Below, piece after piece: positions 4,519-23,976 of a stretch of DNA of 64,000 bases. Below the pieces are notes generated by a model that saw only the letters and a list, made by a program, of their open reading frames with translations, made no database searches and had not been told where the DNA came from. How positions within the stretch are numbered: position 1 is the stretch's first letter; every line of letters starts with the position of its first letter. This stretch comes from Cryobacterium sp. (GTDB lineage: Bacteria > Actinomycetota > Actinomycetes > Actinomycetales > Microbacteriaceae): contig NZ_JAODBG010000074.1 in NCBI RefSeq assembly GCF_025463825.1, forward strand, positions 1 to 64,000, read 5' to 3'. The translations under genes and the position numbers were made by a program.

Positions 4519-5394
4519 TCAGGAGAACGGGAAATCGGGCTGCGGGGCCGCTTTGGCCCGCGCCGGACCGGTTCCACCGGACTTGCCCGTGAGGGCCGCT
4601 TCGTAGAGGTCACGCTTGCCCAGGCCGGATGCGGCGGAGACGTCGGCCGCGGCGTCTTTCAGGCGGGCGCCGCCGGCGACGAGGGCGAGGACCTCCTCCA
4701 CACCGGTGGCGAGGTCGAGCACCTTGGCCTCGGCTCCGGCCACGACGACGCAGATCTCACCGCGAACGCCTTCGGCTGCCCAGACGGCGAGTTCGGCGGC
4801 GGTGCCGCGTTTGACCTCTTCATAGAACTTGGTCAGCTCCCGGCACACCACCACGCGCCGCCCGTCGCCGAGCACCGCGGCGAGGTCGGTGAGGGAGGCG
4901 GCGAGCCGGTTGGGCGATTCGAAGAAGACCATGGTGCGACGCTCCGTGGCCACCTCGCGCAGGGCCTGCATCCGCTCACCGTGTTTGCGCGGAAGGAATC
5001 CCTCGAAGGTGAACCTGTCGGTCGGCAGCCCGGAGACCGCCAGAGCAGTGAGCACCGCGGACGGGCCGGGGATGGCGGAGACGACGACGCCGGCGGCGAT
5101 CGCTGCATCCACCAGGTGGAAGCCCGGGTCGGACACTGTGGGCATGCCGGCGTCGCTGAGCACCAGCAGGTCGGCGTCGCGGGCGAGCTCGACCAGCTCG
5201 GCGGCCTTGCCCCGTTCGTTGTGGTCGTGCAGGGCGATCAGCCGCGGCCGGTTCTCCACGCCCAGCGCCTTGAGCAGGTGCACGGTGACCCGGGTGTCCT
5301 CCGCGGCGATGACGGTGCTGGTGCGCAGCGCCTCGATGAGTCGACTCGAGGCATCCCCGAGGTTTCCGATGGGGGTGGCTGCCAGAATGATCAT
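4519..5394 (-). CDS. rsmI: 16S rRNA (cytidine(1402)-2'-O)-methyltransferase
   Basis: ILAATPIGNLGDAS, AAEDTR, LLVLSDAGMPTVSDPG, FEGFLPRK. Confidence 0.95.
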   Translation of the reverse strand: MIILAATPIGNLGDASSRLIEALRTSTVIAAEDTRVTVHLLKALGVENRPRLIALHDHNERGKAAELVELARDADLLVLSDAGMPTVSDPGFHLVDAAIAAGVVVSAIPGPSAVLTALAVSGLPTDRFTFEGFLPRKHGERMQALREVATERRTMVFFESPNRLAASLTDLAAVLGDGRRVVVCRELTKFYEEVKRGTAAELAVWAAEGVRGEICVVVAGAEAKVLDLATGVEEVLALVAGGARLKDAAADVSAASGLGKRDLYEAALTGKSGGTGPARAKAAPQPDFPFS

Positions 5395-5447
5395 GGTCCC
5401 AGTCTCGCAGCACGCAGGCCCGTACGGCGGCTCACTACGATGGTCAC

Positions 5448-7139
5448 GTGCTCACCACCCTCCGCGAGACCGACCGCGCGACCGACCGCCTGAAGCGCCT
5501 GTGGTCCCACCGCTGGGTGCGCCTGGCCGGTCCGGCGCTGGTGCTGATCCTGGCCGCGTTGCTGCGGTTCTGGAACCTCGGCCATCCCGCCAGCCTGGTG
5601 TTCGACGAGACCTTCTATGTGAAGGACGCCTGGAGCCTGTTCAACAACGGCTACGAGTGCACCTGGCCGGAGGGGGCCGACGCCCTGTTCGCCGCCGGTC
5701 AGAGCAATATCTTCGCCACCACCGCGTCGTTCGTGGTGCACCCGCCGCTGGGCAAATGGCTGATCGCCCTGGGCATGGCCGTGTTCGGCGCGGACAACCC
5801 GGTCGGCTGGCGGGTGATGACCGCACTGGTCGGCCTGCTCGCCGTTGGGGTCCTGATGCTGATCGCGCAGAAGCTCTTCGGGTCGGTGCTGCTGACCTCG
5901 ATCGCCGGTTTCCTGTTCGCCATCGACGGCAACGCCATCGTGATGAGCCGGGTGGCGCTCCTCGACAACTACGTCATGTTCTTCACCCTGCTCGGCTTCG
6001 GCGCCGTCCTGATGGACCGCGCCCAGCAGCGCACCCGGCTGGCCGCCTGGCTCGCCGAGCGCCGGGACAACGAGGTCGAATCCACTTGGGGACCCGCCCT
6101 GTGGTGGCGCCCGTGGGTTCTCGCCGCCGGGCTCGCATTCGGGCTGGCCTGCTCGGTGAAATGGTCCGGGGCCTATTTCCTGGCCGCATTCGGCATCTAC
6201 CTCGTTGTCGTCGACGCGCTCGCCCGGCGCCGGGCCGGGCTGCCGTTCTGGATCAGCGGCGCGATCCTCAAGCAGGGACCGGTGACGTTCCTGTTGCTGG
6301 TCCCGGTCGCCGTGGCCACCTTCCTGGTGTCCTGGACCGGTTGGTTCGTGACCGGCGGCGGCTACTACCGCGACTTCGCCGACCAGGCCGGCCAGGCCTG
6401 GACCGGGGCGCTGGCCTGGGTGCCGCACTCCGTGCAGAGCTTCTGGCACTACCAGTCGGCCGCGTACGGCTACCACATCGGGCTGGTCACCCCGCATCCG
6501 TACCAGGCGAACCCGCTCACCTGGCTGCTGCTGAGCCGCCCGACGAGCATGTACTACCAGGGCAGCTCCCTGGGCGAGAGGGGCTGCGACTACGCCACCT
6601 GCTCCGAGGCCATCACCGGCATCGCCAACCCGATCATCTGGTGGGGGGCCACCGCGGCGATCCTGTACCTGGTATACCGGTTGGTCCGCTACCGCCAGTG
6701 GCAGGTCGGGCTGATCCTGATGGGCATGGTCGCCGGCTACCTGCCGTGGCTGGGATACCTGAATCGCACGGTGTTCCAGTTCTACACGATCGCCTTCGAG
6801 CCGTACCTGATCCTCGGCCTCACCCTGGCCATCGGGATGCTGCTGGGCATCACCACCACTCCGGCCGGCCGAGCGGGTCCCAAGGTGCGTCTGGACCGGC
6901 CGGAGCTGGCCGACCGGGCGGCGCCTCACGGTCCCGCCGGAGAGCCGGCCGAATGCGCTCAGGTGCCACCGGCCGCCCAAGCGGGCACCGCGGGTCCCGG
7001 CACCGCGGGACTGGTCATCGTCGTCGCGTTCCTCTGCGTGGCGACACTGGTCAGCGCCTTCTTCCTGCCGCTCTGGATGGGCACCCAGGTGCCCTTCGCC
7101 TTCTGGCAACTGCATATCTGGCTGCCCAGCTGGCGGTGA
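5448..7139 (+). CDS. dolichyl-phosphate-mannose-protein mannosyltransferase (PMT family)
   Basis: multi-TM; FDETFYVKDAWS, HPPLGKW, SVKWSGAYFL, PTSMYYQ. Confidence 0.92.
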   Translation: MLTTLRETDRATDRLKRLWSHRWVRLAGPALVLILAALLRFWNLGHPASLVFDETFYVKDAWSLFNNGYECTWPEGADALFAAGQSNIFATTASFVVHPPLGKWLIALGMAVFGADNPVGWRVMTALVGLLAVGVLMLIAQKLFGSVLLTSIAGFLFAIDGNAIVMSRVALLDNYVMFFTLLGFGAVLMDRAQQRTRLAAWLAERRDNEVESTWGPALWWRPWVLAAGLAFGLACSVKWSGAYFLAAFGIYLVVVDALARRRAGLPFWISGAILKQGPVTFLLLVPVAVATFLVSWTGWFVTGGGYYRDFADQAGQAWTGALAWVPHSVQSFWHYQSAAYGYHIGLVTPHPYQANPLTWLLLSRPTSMYYQGSSLGERGCDYATCSEAITGIANPIIWWGATAAILYLVYRLVRYRQWQVGLILMGMVAGYLPWLGYLNRTVFQFYTIAFEPYLILGLTLAIGMLLGITTTPAGRAGPKVRLDRPELADRAAPHGPAGEPAECAQVPPAAQAGTAGPGTAGLVIVVAFLCVATLVSAFFLPLWMGTQVPFAFWQLHIWLPSWR

Positions 7140-14821: not shown

Positions 14822-17320
14822 CTACAGCCGGTTCACGCCGGTGACCTTCAGCACGGCGACGCCGGCCTCGTCGCTGGCGGCCAGGTCGACGGTGGCGCTG
14901 ATGCCCCAGTCGTGGTCGCCGGCCGGGTCGTCGAAGATCTGCCGGGCGGTCCACACCTCGGCGCCCTCGTCGAGGATCAGCAGGCCAGCGCCGCGGGCAT
15001 TCGGCCCGACCAGCAGCTCGTCGTGCTCGGCGTAGTACCCGTCCATGGCGTCAGCCCAGACATCCGCCCTGAAGCCGTGCGCGCGGTCGAGCTCGCCGAG
15101 GGCGTCGTAGTCCTCCCGCGCGGCCAGCTGCACCCGGCGGAACAGTTCGTTGCGCACCAGGATCCGGAACGCGCGGGTGTTGGTGGTGAGCCGGTGCGGA
15201 GCGGGCGGCACCACGGTGTGCGCGGTCGATTCGTGCGCGGCCAGGTCGGGGTGGATCAGCTCTTCCCACTCGTCGAGCAGGCTGGAGTCCACCTGGCGCA
15301 CTAGTTCCCCCAGCCACTCGATGAGGTCGAGCAGGTCTTCGGTCTTGGCTTCGTCGGGGATGGTCTGCCGGGCGGCGCGGTAGGCGTCCGAGAGGTAGCG
15401 CAGCACCACGCCCTCGCTGCGGGCAAGCTTGTAGTAGGCCACGAACTCGCCGAACGACATGGCGCGCTCGTACATGTCGCGCACCACGGTCTTGGGGCGC
15501 AGCGGGAAGTCGGCGATCCAGGGCTGGGACTGCTTGTAGGTCTCGAACGCGTAGCTGAGCAGCTCGTCCAGGGGCTTCGGCCAGGTGATCTGCTCGAGCA
15601 GCTCCATGCGCTGGTCGTACTCGATGCCCTCGCTCTTCATGGCGTTGACGGCCTCGCCGCGAGCGGCGAACTGCTGGCCCATCAGCACCGGCCGGGGGTC
15701 GTCGAGGGTGGACTCGAGCACCGAGATCATGTCAAGGGCGTAGGTCGGCGCCTCGATATCGAGCAGGTCGAACGCGGCCAGCGCGAACGGCGACAGCGGC
15801 TGGTTGAGCGCGAAGTTGGCCTGCAGGTCGACGGTCAGTCGGATGCTGCCATCCGCGTCCTGCTCTACGATCCCCGCGGCGCGCAGGGTCTTGTAGATGC
15901 CCAGGGCCCGCCGGGCGTGGGCGAGCTGCCGCTTGAACGGTTCGTGGTTGTCGAACACCAGCGAGTAGACGTTCGCGAAGGCATCCCCGCCGCGGGCGAT
16001 CACGTTGATCAGCATGGCGCTGGTCATCTGCATGCTCGAGGTGAGGGTCTCCGGTTCGGCGTCGACGAGGCGCCGGAACGACGGTTCTCCCCAGGACACG
16101 AAGCCCTCCGGAGCGCGCTTGCGGATGATCTTGCGCTTCTTCTTGGGGTCGTCGCCGGCCTTCTGGATGGCCTTGAGGTTCTCGGTCTCGTGGTCCGGGG
16201 CCTGGACCATCACGGTGCCGGCGGTGTCGAAGCCGGCCCGGCCGGCGCGGCCGGCGATCTGGTGGAACTCACGGGCGTTGAGCTGGCGCATCTTCACACC
16301 GTCGTACTTGGTCAGCGCCGTGAAGAGCACGGTGCGGATGGGCACGTTGATGCCCACCCCCAGGGTGTCGGTACCGCAGATCACCCGCAGCAGGCCACGC
16401 TGGGCGAGCTGCTCGACCAGTCGGCGGTACTTGGGCAGCATGCCGGCGTGGTGCACGCCGATGCCCATCCGGATCAGCCGGGAGAGGGTCTTGCCGAAGC
16501 TGGTGGTGAACCGGAATTCGCCGATGAGGTCGGCGATGGCCTCCTTCTGCTCCTTGGTGACCACCTTCACGCTGGAGAGCGCCTGGGCGCGCTCGAGGGC
16601 GGCGGCCTGGGCGAAGTGCACGATGTAGACGGGCGCCTGGCCGGTCTTGAGCAGGTCCTCCACGGTCTCGTGCACCGGGGTGGTCTCGTAGAAGTAGTGC
16701 AGCGGCACCGGTCGCTCGACGCCGGTGACGACGGCGGTGTCGCGGTTGGTGCGGCGGGACAGGTCCGCGGCGATGTCGGTGACGTCGCCGAGGGTGGCCG
16801 ACATCAGGATGAACTGCACCCGCGGCAAGAGCAGCAGCGGCACCTGCCAGGCCCACCCGCGGTCGGGGTCGGAGTAGAAGTGGAACTCGTCCATCACGAC
16901 CTGGTCGACCGGGGTGTCCGCGCCGTTCCGGAGCGCCAGGTTGGCGAGGATCTCGGCTGTGCAGCAGATGATCGGGGCGTCGGAGTTCACCGAGGAGTCG
17001 CCGGTCATCATGCCGACGTTCTCGGCGCCGAAGATCTCCACCAGGGCGAAGAACTTCTCGCTCACCAACGCCTTGATCGGGGCGGTATAGAAGGTGCGCT
17101 TGCCGGCGGAGAGCGCGGCGAAGTGGGCACCGACGGCCACGAGCGACTTCCCGGTTCCGGTGGGGGTAGAGAGGATCAGGTTCGCCCCCGACACGATCTC
17201 GATGACGGCTTCCTCCTGCGCCGGGTAGAGGCGGAGGCCCGCATCCGCGGCCCACAGCTCGAACGCTTCGAAGAGGACGTCGGGATCGGTGACGTGCGGG
17301 AGGGCGCTGAGGGTTGCCAT
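14822..17320 (-). CDS. SKI2-like DEAD/DEAH-box helicase with C-terminal DUF3516
   Basis: STPTGTGKSLVA, MDEFHFYSD, SATLGD, HQIAGRAGRAGFD motifs; long C-terminal extension. Confidence 0.9.
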   Translation of the reverse strand: MATLSALPHVTDPDVLFEAFELWAADAGLRLYPAQEEAVIEIVSGANLILSTPTGTGKSLVAVGAHFAALSAGKRTFYTAPIKALVSEKFFALVEIFGAENVGMMTGDSSVNSDAPIICCTAEILANLALRNGADTPVDQVVMDEFHFYSDPDRGWAWQVPLLLLPRVQFILMSATLGDVTDIAADLSRRTNRDTAVVTGVERPVPLHYFYETTPVHETVEDLLKTGQAPVYIVHFAQAAALERAQALSSVKVVTKEQKEAIADLIGEFRFTTSFGKTLSRLIRMGIGVHHAGMLPKYRRLVEQLAQRGLLRVICGTDTLGVGINVPIRTVLFTALTKYDGVKMRQLNAREFHQIAGRAGRAGFDTAGTVMVQAPDHETENLKAIQKAGDDPKKKRKIIRKRAPEGFVSWGEPSFRRLVDAEPETLTSSMQMTSAMLINVIARGGDAFANVYSLVFDNHEPFKRQLAHARRALGIYKTLRAAGIVEQDADGSIRLTVDLQANFALNQPLSPFALAAFDLLDIEAPTYALDMISVLESTLDDPRPVLMGQQFAARGEAVNAMKSEGIEYDQRMELLEQITWPKPLDELLSYAFETYKQSQPWIADFPLRPKTVVRDMYERAMSFGEFVAYYKLARSEGVVLRYLSDAYRAARQTIPDEAKTEDLLDLIEWLGELVRQVDSSLLDEWEELIHPDLAAHESTAHTVVPPAPHRLTTNTRAFRILVRNELFRRVQLAAREDYDALGELDRAHGFRADVWADAMDGYYAEHDELLVGPNARGAGLLILDEGAEVWTARQIFDDPAGDHDWGISATVDLAASDEAGVAVLKVTGVNRL

Positions 17321-17337
17321 GATTCCCTAATCCTCCC

Positions 17338-19416
17338 CTATCCGGCTGGCGGCGTCCTCCACTGCATCAGCCAGGCGAGTAGGTAGGCCCGGCTGTTGCC
17401 GTCGTCGATCCGGGCCGCCGGCAGGGTGTCGGCGGCCTCGAGGGCGGCGGCCGCCGCGTCCGGGCCCTGCAGGGCCGCGTACATCAGCAGGTAGTCACCG
17501 AACATCACGTCGTAACTGCCCCCGGGCACCGAGTCGGCCAGGTTGGCCGCCACCCGGGCCGGGTCGCGGCCGAGGTACCCGGCCACCGGACTCATCGGCA
17601 GCACCAGGATGCCGAGCATGGCGCTCGGCTCCGCGCTGAACCAGGTGGCGTAGTCGCGTTTGCCACCCCACACCAGTGAGGTGACGGTGTGGTCGAAGCT
17701 CGCGTAGACCGGGTCGGCCAGGTCGAAGTCGGTCCAGTAGGCGCTGGCGGAGGCAGCCTCGCTGGAGAGCATCCACTCGGCCTCGGCCTGCAGGCCGGCC
17801 TGGTCGCTGGCGGCGGCCCACAGGGCCAGGCCGTTCCACGCCGTGACCGCCTCCGAGCTGGACTCCTGGTTGTTGCCGTCGCCGAACGGCGAGGTGCCGC
17901 TGGCCCAGGAATGGCCGGCATAGGCGTCGAACACCCGTCGAGTGGGGAAGTACTCGCTGTCGCCGCTGGTGGCGAGGTCGGCGGCGAGCAGGTTCAGCAC
18001 CGGCGCCCAGCGTTCGGCGGCGGCGGGGTCGCCGGCCGCGACGACGGCGGCGGCGTAGAAGAAGTAGCCGTAGTGGAAGTGGTGGTCGTTGAACTCCTCC
18101 GAGCCGAACGAGGTCGCCAGGCCCACGATCCCCCGGGCTTGCGGGTCGTAGACGAAGCACCGTTCGGTGCGGTCCACGCAGCCGGCCGCCTCCAGCCACT
18201 CGTCGAGCGCCGTGGCGAGCCGGTCGGTGAGGTCGGCCGCGGCGTCGTCGGCGCCCACCTGACGCGCCACGGCCAAGAGGTTCGCCGCCCGGTAGAGCGA
18301 CTTGCCGCCGAAATAGGTGTCGGCGGCGAAGGTGCCCGTGCTGTCCACGTCGGCGCGCACCTGGTCCGCCAGGCGCTGGCGGTCCTCGCCCTCGACGGCG
18401 GACAGGTCGAGTGTCCCGCTGGGCTGCACGGTGGGCACCGTCCAGGTCAGCGCGGTGCCGGCGCACAGGGTGAGGGTGCCGTAGATACTGGGGTAGCTGC
18501 CGGCGTCGCAGCGGGCGTCCGCGGCGAGGCCGGCCTGCTGGTGCGGCATCGCCGCGACCAGGGTGTCGCCGCCGTCCACGGTGTCGTAGGCGATGGTGGT
18601 GGCGGCCGCATCCGTCGTGCTGCCGTACTCGAGGCGGGTGCCGGTGACCGGATGCCCGGCCGCTTCGGCGAGGGTGGCCAGCGATCCGTCGGCGGGCACC
18701 GCGAACCAGGTGGCGGTACTGCCTCGCGGCACCGCCAGGCCGGTGCCGGAGAGGGCACCCGCCGATACCAGCCCGTACTCGGTGCCGTCCACCTCGGCTC
18801 TCCAGACGCCGTCCCCGGCCGCAGTGAACCCGGCCGGCAGGGTGAGGTCCACGTCGGTCGCGGCGGTGAAGGACACAAACGGGGAGCCTTCCGCGATCAC
18901 CGTCGAACCGAGGTCGTTTCCGGCGCTCCGCTGGGTGATGGTGACCGACGCCTCGTCGTAGGCGGTGACGACCTGCTCGAGGGCCTGGCCGTCCGCGGCG
19001 AGGGAAATGCGGATGGCGGGGGTGTTGCCGCCCAGGATGACCGCGCTGTCACTGGTCACGGTGGGCAGCCCGAAGGCGAGGCCGGTGCCGGTGAGCTGGA
19101 AGGACAGCGGCAGCGGGAACACCGGCATCGGCTCATCGCCGAAGACGAGACCGGAGAACCAGCGATTTGTGGGCGGGATGAGGCCGTCGGCCAGGCGTGC
19201 TGCCGGCAACGGCTTGATCGTTCGCTCGGGCAGGGCGTTGACCAGTGGACCGATCTCTGCGGTGGGGAAGATCGGGTCGGTCGGCTGGGCGCTGCCGGCG
19301 GGCGGGGCGGCGGGCGGCCCGGCCGTGGGCGTGCAGGCCACCAGCCCGGCCGCGGCGGCGAGGGTGGCGGCGGCGACCAGAACCGTCACTGCTCGGAATC
19401 TTGTCGCCATGCTCAC
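17338..19416 (-). CDS. lipoprotein glycoside hydrolase family 81 (endo-beta-1,3-glucanase)
   Basis: lipobox GLVAC; PTNRWFSGLVFG...PLPLSF, EFNDHHFHYGYFFYAAA, HSWASG...NQESSSEAVTAWNGLALW typical of GH81. Confidence 0.85.
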   Translation of the reverse strand: MSMATRFRAVTVLVAAATLAAAAGLVACTPTAGPPAAPPAGSAQPTDPIFPTAEIGPLVNALPERTIKPLPAARLADGLIPPTNRWFSGLVFGDEPMPVFPLPLSFQLTGTGLAFGLPTVTSDSAVILGGNTPAIRISLAADGQALEQVVTAYDEASVTITQRSAGNDLGSTVIAEGSPFVSFTAATDVDLTLPAGFTAAGDGVWRAEVDGTEYGLVSAGALSGTGLAVPRGSTATWFAVPADGSLATLAEAAGHPVTGTRLEYGSTTDAAATTIAYDTVDGGDTLVAAMPHQQAGLAADARCDAGSYPSIYGTLTLCAGTALTWTVPTVQPSGTLDLSAVEGEDRQRLADQVRADVDSTGTFAADTYFGGKSLYRAANLLAVARQVGADDAAADLTDRLATALDEWLEAAGCVDRTERCFVYDPQARGIVGLATSFGSEEFNDHHFHYGYFFYAAAVVAAGDPAAAERWAPVLNLLAADLATSGDSEYFPTRRVFDAYAGHSWASGTSPFGDGNNQESSSEAVTAWNGLALWAAASDQAGLQAEAEWMLSSEAASASAYWTDFDLADPVYASFDHTVTSLVWGGKRDYATWFSAEPSAMLGILVLPMSPVAGYLGRDPARVAANLADSVPGGSYDVMFGDYLLMYAALQGPDAAAAALEAADTLPAARIDDGNSRAYLLAWLMQWRTPPAG

Positions 19417-20144
19417 AGTCCGATCGTGCGCAGGAAGCCGAAGAACCCGTCGCTGACGCCGGCGAGGGGCCCGTCATCGCGGAGCGTCAGGGTGGCAGAG
19501 ACAGGGGTCCCGGGTGCGGCGAGCCCGTTGTATTCACCGTCGGTGAGCCCGGCGGTGACCACCCGGGCGGTGGTTTCGGCCTGGCCGTCGACGGTGGTCA
19601 CCTCCACGGACTCCAGGGTGCCGGCGATCCTGGCCTGGTTGGGCAGCACGATGTCGACCGTCGCGCCATCCTCGACCCTGGCGTAGTCGGTGCTCGTGAG
19701 CACGAACTGGGCGGAGACGAACAGGGACCCACCCCGGTCGATGGTGGCGAGCACCTGGCCGGCCTGCACGAACGAGCCCCGTTCGGTCTTGATGCCGGTG
19801 ACGGTGCCGTCGATGGAGGCCGTGAGGGTGAGCACCCCGTCGCCGGACACCGAATAGGCAACGTTCTCCAGGCTCACCAGCCCCTCGGCGACGTCCGCCT
19901 GCAGGGTGGGGCTCTGCACCGTGAACAGGGGCTGCCCGGCGGTGACGGTGTCCCCCTCGTCGATGAGGCGATCGATCACGATTCCGCCGTAGTCGGTGCC
20001 GACCGGGTACTGGGCGGCCTGGATCGATGCGGATGCGCTGGCCACCTGCGATTGGCGCTGGTTGAAGAGCACCGTGAGCACGGCGACGAGTGCGACGACC
20101 CCGACCAGGCCGACGAACAGCCGGACACGGTTGGCCCAGGTCAT
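19413..20144 (-). CDS. HlyD/membrane-fusion-like single-TM protein
   Basis: N-terminal TM, then biotinyl-lipoyl-like barrel (LIDEGDTVTAGQPLFTVQSP, GTVTGIKTERGSFVQAGQVLATID); 4-bp overlaps with both neighbours. Confidence 0.75.
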   Translation of the reverse strand: MTWANRVRLFVGLVGVVALVAVLTVLFNQRQSQVASASASIQAAQYPVGTDYGGIVIDRLIDEGDTVTAGQPLFTVQSPTLQADVAEGLVSLENVAYSVSGDGVLTLTASIDGTVTGIKTERGSFVQAGQVLATIDRGGSLFVSAQFVLTSTDYARVEDGATVDIVLPNQARIAGTLESVEVTTVDGQAETTARVVTAGLTDGEYNGLAAPGTPVSATLTLRDDGPLAGVSDGFFGFLRTIGL

Positions 20145-21889
20145 GCGGTCACCGCCTCGCGGCCGGGCGCATCCGCCGGCAGCGGCGGGCCGGCCCACTG
20201 GGTCACCCGGCGCCGCCCGAGCAGCATCCGTCGCTCGGCCGCGAGACTCAACCGGGTGGCGCGGCTCTCGTGCAGCGCGGCGCCGATGAAGCTGCCGAGA
20301 ATCACGGTGTTGGTCACGTTCCACGCCGTGGCCAGGGTGGGGGCGCCGATGCCGACGTCCCGCCAGAGGGCCACGACCGAGGTGAGTAGCAGGAACACGA
20401 ACACCAGCACCTGCGGAATCATGAAGTTGAACGGTGAGGACACCGTCGACTTGTTGCCCGTTGCCCGCCACTGCTGTTCCTTGCCGATGACCACATTGAC
20501 CAGGGCGGCCAGGTAGATCGGGAACGACGCGGCGGCGAGCATCAGGGTCTCCCAGCGGAAGGAGCCCATCGTGTAGAACGCGAGCGCCACCTGCATCAGG
20601 TAGAACCCCGCGTAGTACAGCAGCCAGGTGCCCAGGGTGGTCGACAGGTTCATCGGCCGCAGGTCGAAGTAGATCTCCAGCGGCGGCACGATGAGCAGCA
20701 GCAGCGGGGCGATACCGGTGAGGTAGAACGACGCGGTGACCAGGTACTGCAGGCGCTGGTCGAAGGTGAGACGCCGGCGGCGGCTGAGCGGGTTGCTGGT
20801 CAGCAGGATCTCGAACCCGCCCGTCGCCCAACGCAGTTGCTGCTTGGTGTAGGCCTCGACGGTGTCCGGTGCGTGGCCGGTGGCCAGCACCATCGGGATG
20901 AAAATTGTCTTCCAACCCCGCTCGTGCAGCTTGAGCGAGGTCCAGACGTCCTCCGACTTGGAGTCGGTGTACATGCCGCCGACATCCACGATGGCGTCCC
21001 GGCGGAAGATCACGTTGGTGCCCACGCAGAACGCGGCGTTGAACCGGTTGCGGCCGGGCTGGATGAACCGATAGAACACCGACTGCATGTACCCGGCGCC
21101 GCGCGAGATCACGTTGTGCAGGTTCCGATAGGCCTGCGGCGTCTGCACGAAGGCGACCCTGTCGTCACTGAAGAACGGCAGCGTCTCCACCAGGAACTCC
21201 GGCTCCGGCACAAAATCGGCGTCGAAGATCACGAAGTACTCACCGGAGCTCGCCGTCAGCGCGTGGTTGACGTTGCCCGCTTTCGCCCCGTTGGGGCTGA
21301 GCCGACGCAGGTACCGCGCGCCGAGGTCGGACGCCAGGGCCCGAACGTCGTCGGACCGGCCGTCGTCGAGGATCCAGGTGAGGTGCGCCCCCCGGATGGC
21401 GAGGGCGGCGGTGACGGTGTCCCGGATCACGTCGAGGCTCTCGCCGTAAGTGGTGATGAACACGTCGATGCTGGTGGGCTGCCCGCACAGGTGTAGTTGC
21501 CGCCGGTCGGCGCCGGACGTCCCCGCTCCCCGGGGGTTCGACCTGGTCGCGAACAGGGCGGCCTGGGCCTGGTGGAAGGCGAAGTCGCGGGGGTCCTGGG
21601 AGCCGGAGAGGATGGTCCACATCGACAGCAGCGCCTGGAAGATCAGGCTCGATTCCGCGACGATGACGAGCGTGTACGGCAGCCAGTCGCCGCGGCTGGC
21701 CGGGTTCAACAGAAAGTTGGCGTAGGCCAGGATGCCGATGGTCGCGACCAGCACCAGCAGTACCAGCGAGGGCGAGTGGTCATGCCCGGCGCGCGGCGGT
21801 CGCCCCGATTTCGGGTCCGCGAGCTGCCGGTGCGGTGGGATGCGGTGCATCAGCGCGGGGTCGTCGATGCGGGGATGAAGAGAGGTCAT
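20141..21889 (-). CDS. processive family 2 glycosyltransferase (cellulose/curdlan synthase-like)
   Basis: ILDDGRSDD, FDADFVPE, KSEDVWTSL, QQLRW (QxxRW) and multiple TM helices; start MTSLHP. Confidence 0.85.
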   Translation of the reverse strand: MTSLHPRIDDPALMHRIPPHRQLADPKSGRPPRAGHDHSPSLVLLVLVATIGILAYANFLLNPASRGDWLPYTLVIVAESSLIFQALLSMWTILSGSQDPRDFAFHQAQAALFATRSNPRGAGTSGADRRQLHLCGQPTSIDVFITTYGESLDVIRDTVTAALAIRGAHLTWILDDGRSDDVRALASDLGARYLRRLSPNGAKAGNVNHALTASSGEYFVIFDADFVPEPEFLVETLPFFSDDRVAFVQTPQAYRNLHNVISRGAGYMQSVFYRFIQPGRNRFNAAFCVGTNVIFRRDAIVDVGGMYTDSKSEDVWTSLKLHERGWKTIFIPMVLATGHAPDTVEAYTKQQLRWATGGFEILLTSNPLSRRRRLTFDQRLQYLVTASFYLTGIAPLLLLIVPPLEIYFDLRPMNLSTTLGTWLLYYAGFYLMQVALAFYTMGSFRWETLMLAAASFPIYLAALVNVVIGKEQQWRATGNKSTVSSPFNFMIPQVLVFVFLLLTSVVALWRDVGIGAPTLATAWNVTNTVILGSFIGAALHESRATRLSLAAERRMLLGRRRVTQWAGPPLPADAPGREAVTA

Positions 21890-22320: not shown

Positions 22321-23976
22321 ATGTCCAGCACTCCCCCGGCACCGGCCGCCCCGCCGCCCACCGAGCCATCCGTGCGCCCGCGCGGGAACACGTCGGCACG
22401 CTGCTGGTGGCCGGCGCTGGCCGGACTGGCCGCGGTGCTGGCAGGGTTCGGCCTGGGCGAGCTTGTCGCCGGGCTCATCGCCCCCGGTGCCAGCCCGGTG
22501 CTGGTGGTCGGCGCCCTGCTCATCGATCTGGCGCCCGCGCCGGTGAAAGAGCTGGTGATCGGTCTGTTCGGCACCGCGGACAAGGTGGCGCTGATCGTCT
22601 TCATCGCCCTGGTCGCGGCGGCCCTGGCCGCCGCGGCCGGAGTTCTCGAATACCGCCGGCCGCCGTTCGGGCGGTTCGTGGTGGTCATCGCGGGCCTTGT
22701 GGCGCTCGTCGCGGCACTCACCCGAGCCGACGCGTCCCCGTTCGACGCCGTGCCACCGGTGCTGGCCATGGTGGTCGCCGCCCTCGTGCTCACCATGCTG
22801 CTGAAGCGGCTGCACGCGAGCACCGCGCCCGCCGAGGCCGCCGCCGCCGCGACCGCCCACACCGGCCGCATCGCATCCGTCACCCCCCACGCGGCCGCCC
22901 GGGCCGCCCTCGACCGGCGCCGGTTTCTCCTGTACACCGGGGTCAGCGCCGGCGCCGGCGTGCTCGCGGCGATCGGCGGCCAGCTGCTCACGGCCGGCAG
23001 CCGGGCAGCGGACGCCGCCAGGGCGCTGTTCACCCTGCCCGCCCCCAGCACTCCGGGCGCGCCGATCGCCGCCGGGGCATCCTTCGACATCGACGGTCTC
23101 GCGCCGATCATCACTCCCAACGCCGACTTCTACCGCATCGACACAGCGCTCTCCGTGCCCCGCATCGACCCGTCCACCTGGACCCTGAAGATCAGCGGGC
23201 TGGTCGAGAACGACGTGGAAATCGACTTCGCCGAGCTGCTCGCCCTGCCCCTGGAAGAGAGCACCACCACCCTCGCCTGCGTGTCGAACTACGTGGGCGG
23301 CGACCTGATCGGCAACGCCGTGTGGCTGGGCTACCCGATTCGCGAGCTGCTCAAGCGGGCCGCGCCGACCAGCGACGCCGACATGGTGCTTTCCCGCAGC
23401 CAGGACGGCTGGACCGCCAGCACCCCGCTCGAGGCGCTCACCGACGACCGCAACGCCATCCTCGCCGTGGGCATGAACGGCGACCCGCTGCCCCTGGAGC
23501 ACGGCTATCCGGTGCGGATGGTCGTGCCGGGCCTCTACGGCTACGTGTCCGCCACCAAATGGGTCACCGAGCTCGTGGTCACCCGCTTCGACACGGAGAC
23601 GGCGTACTGGTCCACGCGCGGCTGGTCGGAGGAGGGACCGGTCAAGCTGTCGTCGCGGGTGGACGTCCCCCGGGACAATGCCACCGCCGCCGCCGGAACC
23701 GTGACGGTCGCGGGTGTGGCCTGGAGCCAGCACGTCGGGGTGTCCGCCGTGGACGTGCAGGTGGACGACGGCGAGTGGAACGCGGCGACGCTGGCCGACG
23801 CCATCTCCGTGGACACCTGGCGGCAGTGGCGTTGGGACTGGACGGCAACCGCGGGTTCGCACTCGATCCGGGTGCGCGCGACGGATGCCAACGGCTCGGT
23901 GCAGACCAGCAAGCTCGCCGATGTGGCACCGGACGGCGCCACCGGGCTGCACGAGGTCAGCGTCTCGGTGCCCTGA
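22321..23976 (+). CDS. membrane-anchored molybdopterin-dependent oxidoreductase (sulfite oxidase family)
   Basis: N-terminal TM region; LACVSNYVGGDLIGNAVWLGYPI, GYPVRMVVPGLYGYVSATKWVTEL, C-terminal dimerisation-like domain. Confidence 0.88.
   Translation: MSSTPPAPAAPPPTEPSVRPRGNTSARCWWPALAGLAAVLAGFGLGELVAGLIAPGASPVLVVGALLIDLAPAPVKELVIGLFGTADKVALIVFIALVAAALAAAAGVLEYRRPPFGRFVVVIAGLVALVAALTRADASPFDAVPPVLAMVVAALVLTMLLKRLHASTAPAEAAAAATAHTGRIASVTPHAAARAALDRRRFLLYTGVSAGAGVLAAIGGQLLTAGSRAADAARALFTLPAPSTPGAPIAAGASFDIDGLAPIITPNADFYRIDTALSVPRIDPSTWTLKISGLVENDVEIDFAELLALPLEESTTTLACVSNYVGGDLIGNAVWLGYPIRELLKRAAPTSDADMVLSRSQDGWTASTPLEALTDDRNAILAVGMNGDPLPLEHGYPVRMVVPGLYGYVSATKWVTELVVTRFDTETAYWSTRGWSEEGPVKLSSRVDVPRDNATAAAGTVTVAGVAWSQHVGVSAVDVQVDDGEWNAATLADAISVDTWRQWRWDWTATAGSHSIRVRATDANGSVQTSKLADVAPDGATGLHEVSVSVP

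Follow-up and report, generated by a model that had tools for sequence, protein, structure and literature searches.

What polysaccharide is made by an operon in which a processive synthase is followed directly by an HlyD-type adaptor and an endo-β-1,3-glucanase? This question is raised by a stretch of 64,000 nucleotides from Cryobacterium sp. (contig NZ_JAODBG010000074.1, positions 1 to 64,000; hereafter the window), which carries such a trio of genes at 17338-21889, encoding a glycosyltransferase of family GT2, an adaptor of the HlyD/membrane-fusion type and a glycoside hydrolase of family GH81. The locus is in all probability an operon for β-glucan synthesis and export. Its best single reading, to which a probability of about 0.62 is assigned, is that of a monoderm curdlan-type (β-1,3-glucan) synthesis operon with a tethered cognate glucanase, the linkage being deduced from the GH81 enzyme and from the presence of the operon in the curdlan producer Cellulomonas flavigena. 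An earlier note on this DNA, made from the letters alone, had placed the candidate operon in the interval 14822-21889. This holds for the trio at 17338-21889, while the segment 14822-17320 encodes a DUF3516 helicase that is only a neighbour.

The first gene product matches the Pfam families PF13632 (5e-26), PF13641 (1e-24) and PF03552 (3e-13), displays two N-terminal and about five C-terminal transmembrane helices, and carries the motifs DDG, DAD, SED and QQLRW, which are invariant or almost so among orthologs. It is 88% identical to the GT2 of Cryobacterium sp. 1639. No Pfam match to PilZ was obtained on the protein, and in its AlphaFold2 (AF2) model (mean predicted local distance difference test score, pLDDT, 82.6) the chain stops about 19 disordered residues past the last helix, without a C-terminal cytosolic domain for binding of cyclic di-GMP (c-di-GMP). 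Ranking of this model against folds in the PDB placed bacterial BcsA first and plant CesA and barley CslF6 next, with hyaluronan and chitin synthases after them, and the GT2 is thus predicted to be a BcsA-fold β-glucan synthase. Features of BcsA itself are nevertheless lacking: the NCBIfam CelA model (TIGR03030) matches at 9e-75 with 252 bits, below its cut-off of 699 bits, and neither a PilZ domain nor the BcsA residues H/N/L at linkage-associated positions (see below) are present.

The second gene product matches PF13437 (HlyD_3; 2e-13, above cut-off), and its AF2 model (pLDDT 86) comprises a single N-terminal transmembrane helix followed by the barrel-sandwich and β-barrel by which HlyD/membrane fusion proteins are recognized. 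The long α-hairpin that would reach an outer-membrane channel is absent from this model, with just a helix (79-86) between the lipoyl halves, and all but one of 69 orthologs measure 236-247 amino acids. In BgsB, CrdA and further rhizobial partners, by contrast, at least about 150 residues of coiled-coil occupy the place where the operon adaptor has none. Such a hairpin-less adaptor fits a cell without an outer membrane. Its occurrence in a monoderm had been called unusual, but a precedent exists, since the fold matches in the PDB include, besides ZneB, MexA and MacA, the Streptococcus membrane-fusion protein Spr0693 (5xu0).

Concerning the third gene product, a match to PF17652 (Glyco_hydro81C; 2e-57, 195 bits versus a cut-off of 25.6) is accompanied by matches to solved endo-β-1,3-glucanases (6fop at 1e-65 and the BH0236 structures). 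The catalytic motifs NDHHFHYGY and NNQESSSE with their conserved Asp and Glu are intact, and they are invariant or almost so in both phyla in which the operon was found (Actinomycetota and Saccharibacteria). In the window, the protein carries the lipobox LVAC. A hydrolase linked to a synthase usually cuts the polymer of that synthase, as known for BcsZ, CcsZ and PgaB. The GH81 gene overlaps the preceding gene in most loci and has been retained in both phyla, which favours a β-1,3 product. Altogether, the gene content described in the earlier note was recovered: three genes on the minus strand, joined by two overlaps of 4 bp (Table 1), a β-glucan-type processive GT2 with D, DxD, SED and QQLRW motifs, multiple transmembrane helices and no PilZ domain, a single-span HlyD-like protein, and a GH81 lipoprotein.

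The survey of GT2-HlyD-GH81 synteny in Actinobacteria proposed in that note was carried out on loci gathered by protein searches of relatives, of genomes from the order and of a named genome collection, with 70 GT2s at ≥50% identity serving as the ortholog set. The HlyD gene adjoins the GT2 gene in 69 of these 70, the remaining locus being truncated where its contig ends; a GH81 gene was found in 67. At least one of the loci without a detected GH81 (L106) has a tandemly duplicated GT2-HlyD pair with GH81 located after the second copy. The 4-bp overlap between GT2 and HlyD recurs in 62 of 69 orthologs and that between HlyD and GH81 in 48 of 67. Among 60 near genomes, GT2 and HlyD occur in the identical 13, and GH81 in those 13 plus two more; the chance of an identical 13/60 profile is p ~2e-13 if kinship is ignored. 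Synteny is therefore far above chance, and the trio is an ancient unit.

Its distribution is patchy: among 396 genomes from the order, 57 yielded GT2 matches at E≤1e-60, some few of which are distant, and no close GT2 ortholog came from a sparse sample of 396 genomes drawn from the whole phylum. In the genus of C. flavigena, 54 of 82 genomes gave a match at E≤1e-40, some few being distant GT2s. Tandem duplications comprise the entire operon in one locus (L115, 3459-13158) and the GT2-HlyD pair followed by a single GH81 in two others (L116, 5069-12448; L117, 2729-10356). A broken GT2 frame or an in-frame TGA within the match, due to decay or sequencing error, was seen in a few Cellulomonadaceae genomes (L124, 4602-6755, and matches in G606, G881, G848 and G949). 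A contig labelled as an acidobacterial metagenome-assembled genome (L038) groups among Microbacteriaceae and was set aside as a probable mis-bin.

The link to curdlan comes from Cellulomonas. The GT2-HlyD-GH81 operon is present in each of C. flavigena 134T, C. fimi and C. gilvus, which, like its presence in Saccharibacteria, is a new observation. C. flavigena is a known Gram-positive producer of abundant curdlan (PMC3544764), and Cellulomonas curdlan was reported from 1990 at the latest (patent cited in PMC3544764). In that study, two GT2 candidates with 35-39% identity to Agrobacterium CrdS were listed per genome, those of C. flavigena being Cfla_3154 and Cfla_2615. Based on locus-tag order relative to map position and on identity to CrdS (38% for the C. 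flavigena operon GT2), the operon GT2s are very likely the candidates Cfla_3154, Celf_3456 and Celgi_1506. For these, the main text of PMC3544764 describes neither HlyD or GH81 partners nor an operon nor a function test, and no further paper on the locus tags was found in the literature searched. In the papers found, Cellulomonas curdlan genes have so far been suspected from 35-39% similarity alone; the present operon, probably the curdlan operon that had been overlooked in its hosts, names a specific synthase together with two conserved partners. Moreover, a GH81 encoded within the operon suggests how C. flavigena could recycle its curdlan, a point left unexplained in PMC3544764.

For comparison with known systems, the Agrobacterium crdASC operon (L065, whose CrdS agrees with every published AtCrdS residue number checked), the bgsBA operon on pSymB of Sinorhizobium meliloti 1021 (L064) and BcsA sequences were retrieved, while Romboutsia RiGT2, CcsA and Streptomyces CslA were left out of the GT2 tree. 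The closest functional analogue is crdASC, and the present operon is predicted to work alike yet lies outside that family. Both contain a GT2 (CrdS) and an HlyD-like protein (CrdA), the latter being a criterion for curdlan operons, and crdASC has a third gene, CrdC, where the operon has GH81. Judged by sequence, crdASC may follow the same plan of a synthase with a glucanase-type partner. However, the HlyD gene lies upstream in crdASC, whereas the present order is GT2-HlyD-GH; CrdA measures about 485 amino acids with a hairpin versus 243 without; CrdS belongs to a different clade, and its specific channel residues are missing from the operon GT2. Furthermore, the crdASC product is known to be β-1,3-glucan, whereas we infer it here. 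In L065 itself, CrdA (1255-2709) is an HlyD-family protein with PF13437 above cut-off, and CrdC (4908-6188), which falls into no Pfam family, weakly matches the endo-β-1,2-glucanase structure 6imw (E=0.002), hinting at a glucanase-type fold.

The operon also resembles bgsBA in combining a GT2 without PilZ with an HlyD-type partner. The specific kinship to BgsA/BgsB suggested in the earlier note was, however, not borne out, as BgsA falls in a separate clade and carries a C-terminal c-di-GMP domain lacking here, gene order is reversed with HlyD upstream, the partner contains a coiled-coil hairpin, and bgsBA has no glucanase gene. Another S. meliloti pSymB match (L061) was rejected as bgsA because its neighbours bcsN-bcsA-bcsB identify a cellulose operon. 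Plasmid-borne HlyD and GT2 pairs of Bradyrhizobium, Agrobacterium and Azospirillum (L062, L066, L067, L069), mostly with a cache-domain protein alongside, form a clade near CrdS/BgsA, for which no product name was found. With BcsAB plus BcsZ and the clostridial Ccs operons, the locus shares an inner-membrane GT2, an extracytoplasmic accessory subunit and a cognate hydrolase reporting the polymer, but it has no PilZ and no BcsB, GH81 instead of GH8/GH5, and non-cellulose residues. Romboutsia RiGT2 (PMC10374906), compared by its description, is likewise a Gram-positive GT2 β-glucan synthase, yet with a C-terminal PilZ domain. The Actinoplanes sporangium matrix cluster (PMC12691653) was judged unrelated.

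On the proposed mechanism, the GT2 would polymerize cytosolic uridine diphosphate glucose and extrude a linear β-1,3-glucan through its own transmembrane channel, as BcsA does. The membrane-anchored, hairpin-less HlyD protein, which has no coiled-coil spanning to an outer membrane, would be positioned on the outer side, where the channel opens, to organize or guide the chain. The lipid-anchored GH81 may then cut the emerging β-1,3-glucan, thereby setting its length, releasing or unjamming it, or later recovering glucose, with the three proteins presumably acting as a physical complex.

Several findings weigh against a curdlan-type product. In the tree, the GT2 clusters with other actinobacterial GT2s outside the alphaproteobacterial CrdS+BgsA clade (SH-like approximate likelihood ratio test, SH-aLRT, 100), and membership in CrdS or BgsA by forced grouping was rejected (approximately unbiased test, p-AU 0.0002). 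Linkage-associated positions at the channel entrance of CrdS have been described, the differentially conserved ones including Q237, Q259, K270, H374, W422 and H442 (PMC6821405). The CrdS-specific channel residues H374, K382, W422, E439 and H442 are replaced by V, G, I/V, L and A in the operon GT2, and these replacements are almost invariant within its family. Counting in favour of the reading, the operon GT2 has Q/Q/R at Q237/Q259/K270, identical to or a conservative change from the Q/Q/K of CrdS, compared to Q/Q/R in BgsA, H/N/L in BcsA and H/G/N in E. coli BcsA. This pattern, common to BgsA, excludes a BcsA-like signature without choosing between curdlan and mixed linkage, and the operon GT2 is a separate subfamily that is not BcsA-like at linkage-associated positions. 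Finally, the operon occurs in C. fimi and C. gilvus as well, although little curdlan is reportedly made by C. fimi (PMC3544764), and a second candidate GT2 exists in C. flavigena.

Hence, a mixed-linkage (1,3;1,4)-β-glucan as made by BgsA or RiGT2, with GH81 acting on β-1,3 runs or on another substrate, has to be considered, as the Q237/Q259/R270 equivalents agree with BgsA as well as with CrdS and bgsBA shows the same HlyD pairing. This pairing is no argument for mixed linkage rather than curdlan because CrdA is equally HlyD-like, and the position of the GT2 outside the BgsA clade, the missing c-di-GMP domain and the occurrence of the operon in a curdlan producer make such a product unlikely; in addition, a strictly alternating glucan would give GH81 no contiguous β-1,3 stretch. 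Of the two products that the earlier note had named together, curdlan-like and mixed-linkage, the former is preferred, since both the GH81 enzyme and the occurrence of the operon in C. flavigena favour contiguous β-1,3-glucan. That a cellulose-like (β-1,4) or other β-glycan is formed beside a fortuitous GH81 directed at fungal β-glucan is improbable: the nearest curated matches in model and fold are indeed cellulose synthases, but the CelA score and the absence of BcsA-type residues speak against it, as does a GH81 that is overlap-coupled in most loci, conserved over two phyla and tethered to the same membrane. Slightly less probable still is a locus serving chiefly β-1,3-glucan catabolism through GH81 and its HlyD export partner, with the GT2 making an unrelated polymer. 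GH81 enzymes are usually degradative and two relatives possess GH81 without the operon, but the GT2 is the first gene, the trio co-occurs as a unit, and neither a sugar transporter nor a β-glucosidase was found beside the operon among the open reading frames and Pfam matches of the window.

The putative β-1,3-glucan operon extends beyond Actinomycetota. Following a first match in a Saccharibacteria assembly (L048), close GT2 orthologs were found in 11 of 295 genomes of its class, each of them followed by HlyD and GH81 in identical arrangement (L136-L146). A binning error was ruled out by these 11 genomes, by contigs of 952,504, 1,164,240 and 845,464 bases carrying the operon in three of them, and by an operon guanine-cytosine content close to that of the flanks in most. 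The copies form one group beside those of Actinomycetota, also in a tree of GT2 alone, with unstable rooting near A_L123. In the ten Saccharibacteria GH81 proteins checked, and likewise in L048, an N-terminal transmembrane helix replaces the lipobox; attachment to the membrane is thus preserved by other means. The literature searched revealed no comparable exopolysaccharide synthase in Saccharibacteria. The operon would represent a β-glucan secretion module suited to one-membrane cells. Tentatively, and with the odds slightly against it, one ancestral β-1,3-glucan operon with a hairpin-less adaptor could be common to both phyla and have been transferred as a unit, giving the ultra-small Saccharibacteria a curdlan-like coat or holdfast of their own.

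Table 1 Features of the operon and its downstream neighbour in the window
Feature	Position	Strand	Length and evidence
Processive GT2 polysaccharide synthase	20141..21889	(-)	582 amino acids; Pfam/NCBIfam, AF2 fold, orthologs
HlyD/membrane-fusion-type adaptor	19413..20144	(-)	243 amino acids; PF13437, AF2, PDB folds
GH81 endo-β-1,3-glucanase family lipoprotein	17338..19416	(-)	692 amino acids; PF17652, 6fop/BH0236 structures, lipobox
ATGA-type overlap of 4 bp between GT2 stop and HlyD start	20141..20144	(-)	
GTGA 4-bp overlap, HlyD stop / GH81 start	19413..19416	(-)	
DUF3516 DEAD/DEAH helicase, neighbour outside the operon	14822..17320	(-)	PF12029 5e-199

The GT2 gene is taken to start at the ATG at 21889, although its open frame extends to 22162. 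The helicase was ruled out as an operon member, as it adjoins the operon solely in loci of the Cryobacterium type and does not accompany it elsewhere. Upstream, a divergent gene for a SorA/SoxC-like molybdopterin sulfite dehydrogenase is located at 22321-23976 of the window, a linkage that is likewise seen only in Cryobacterium-type loci.

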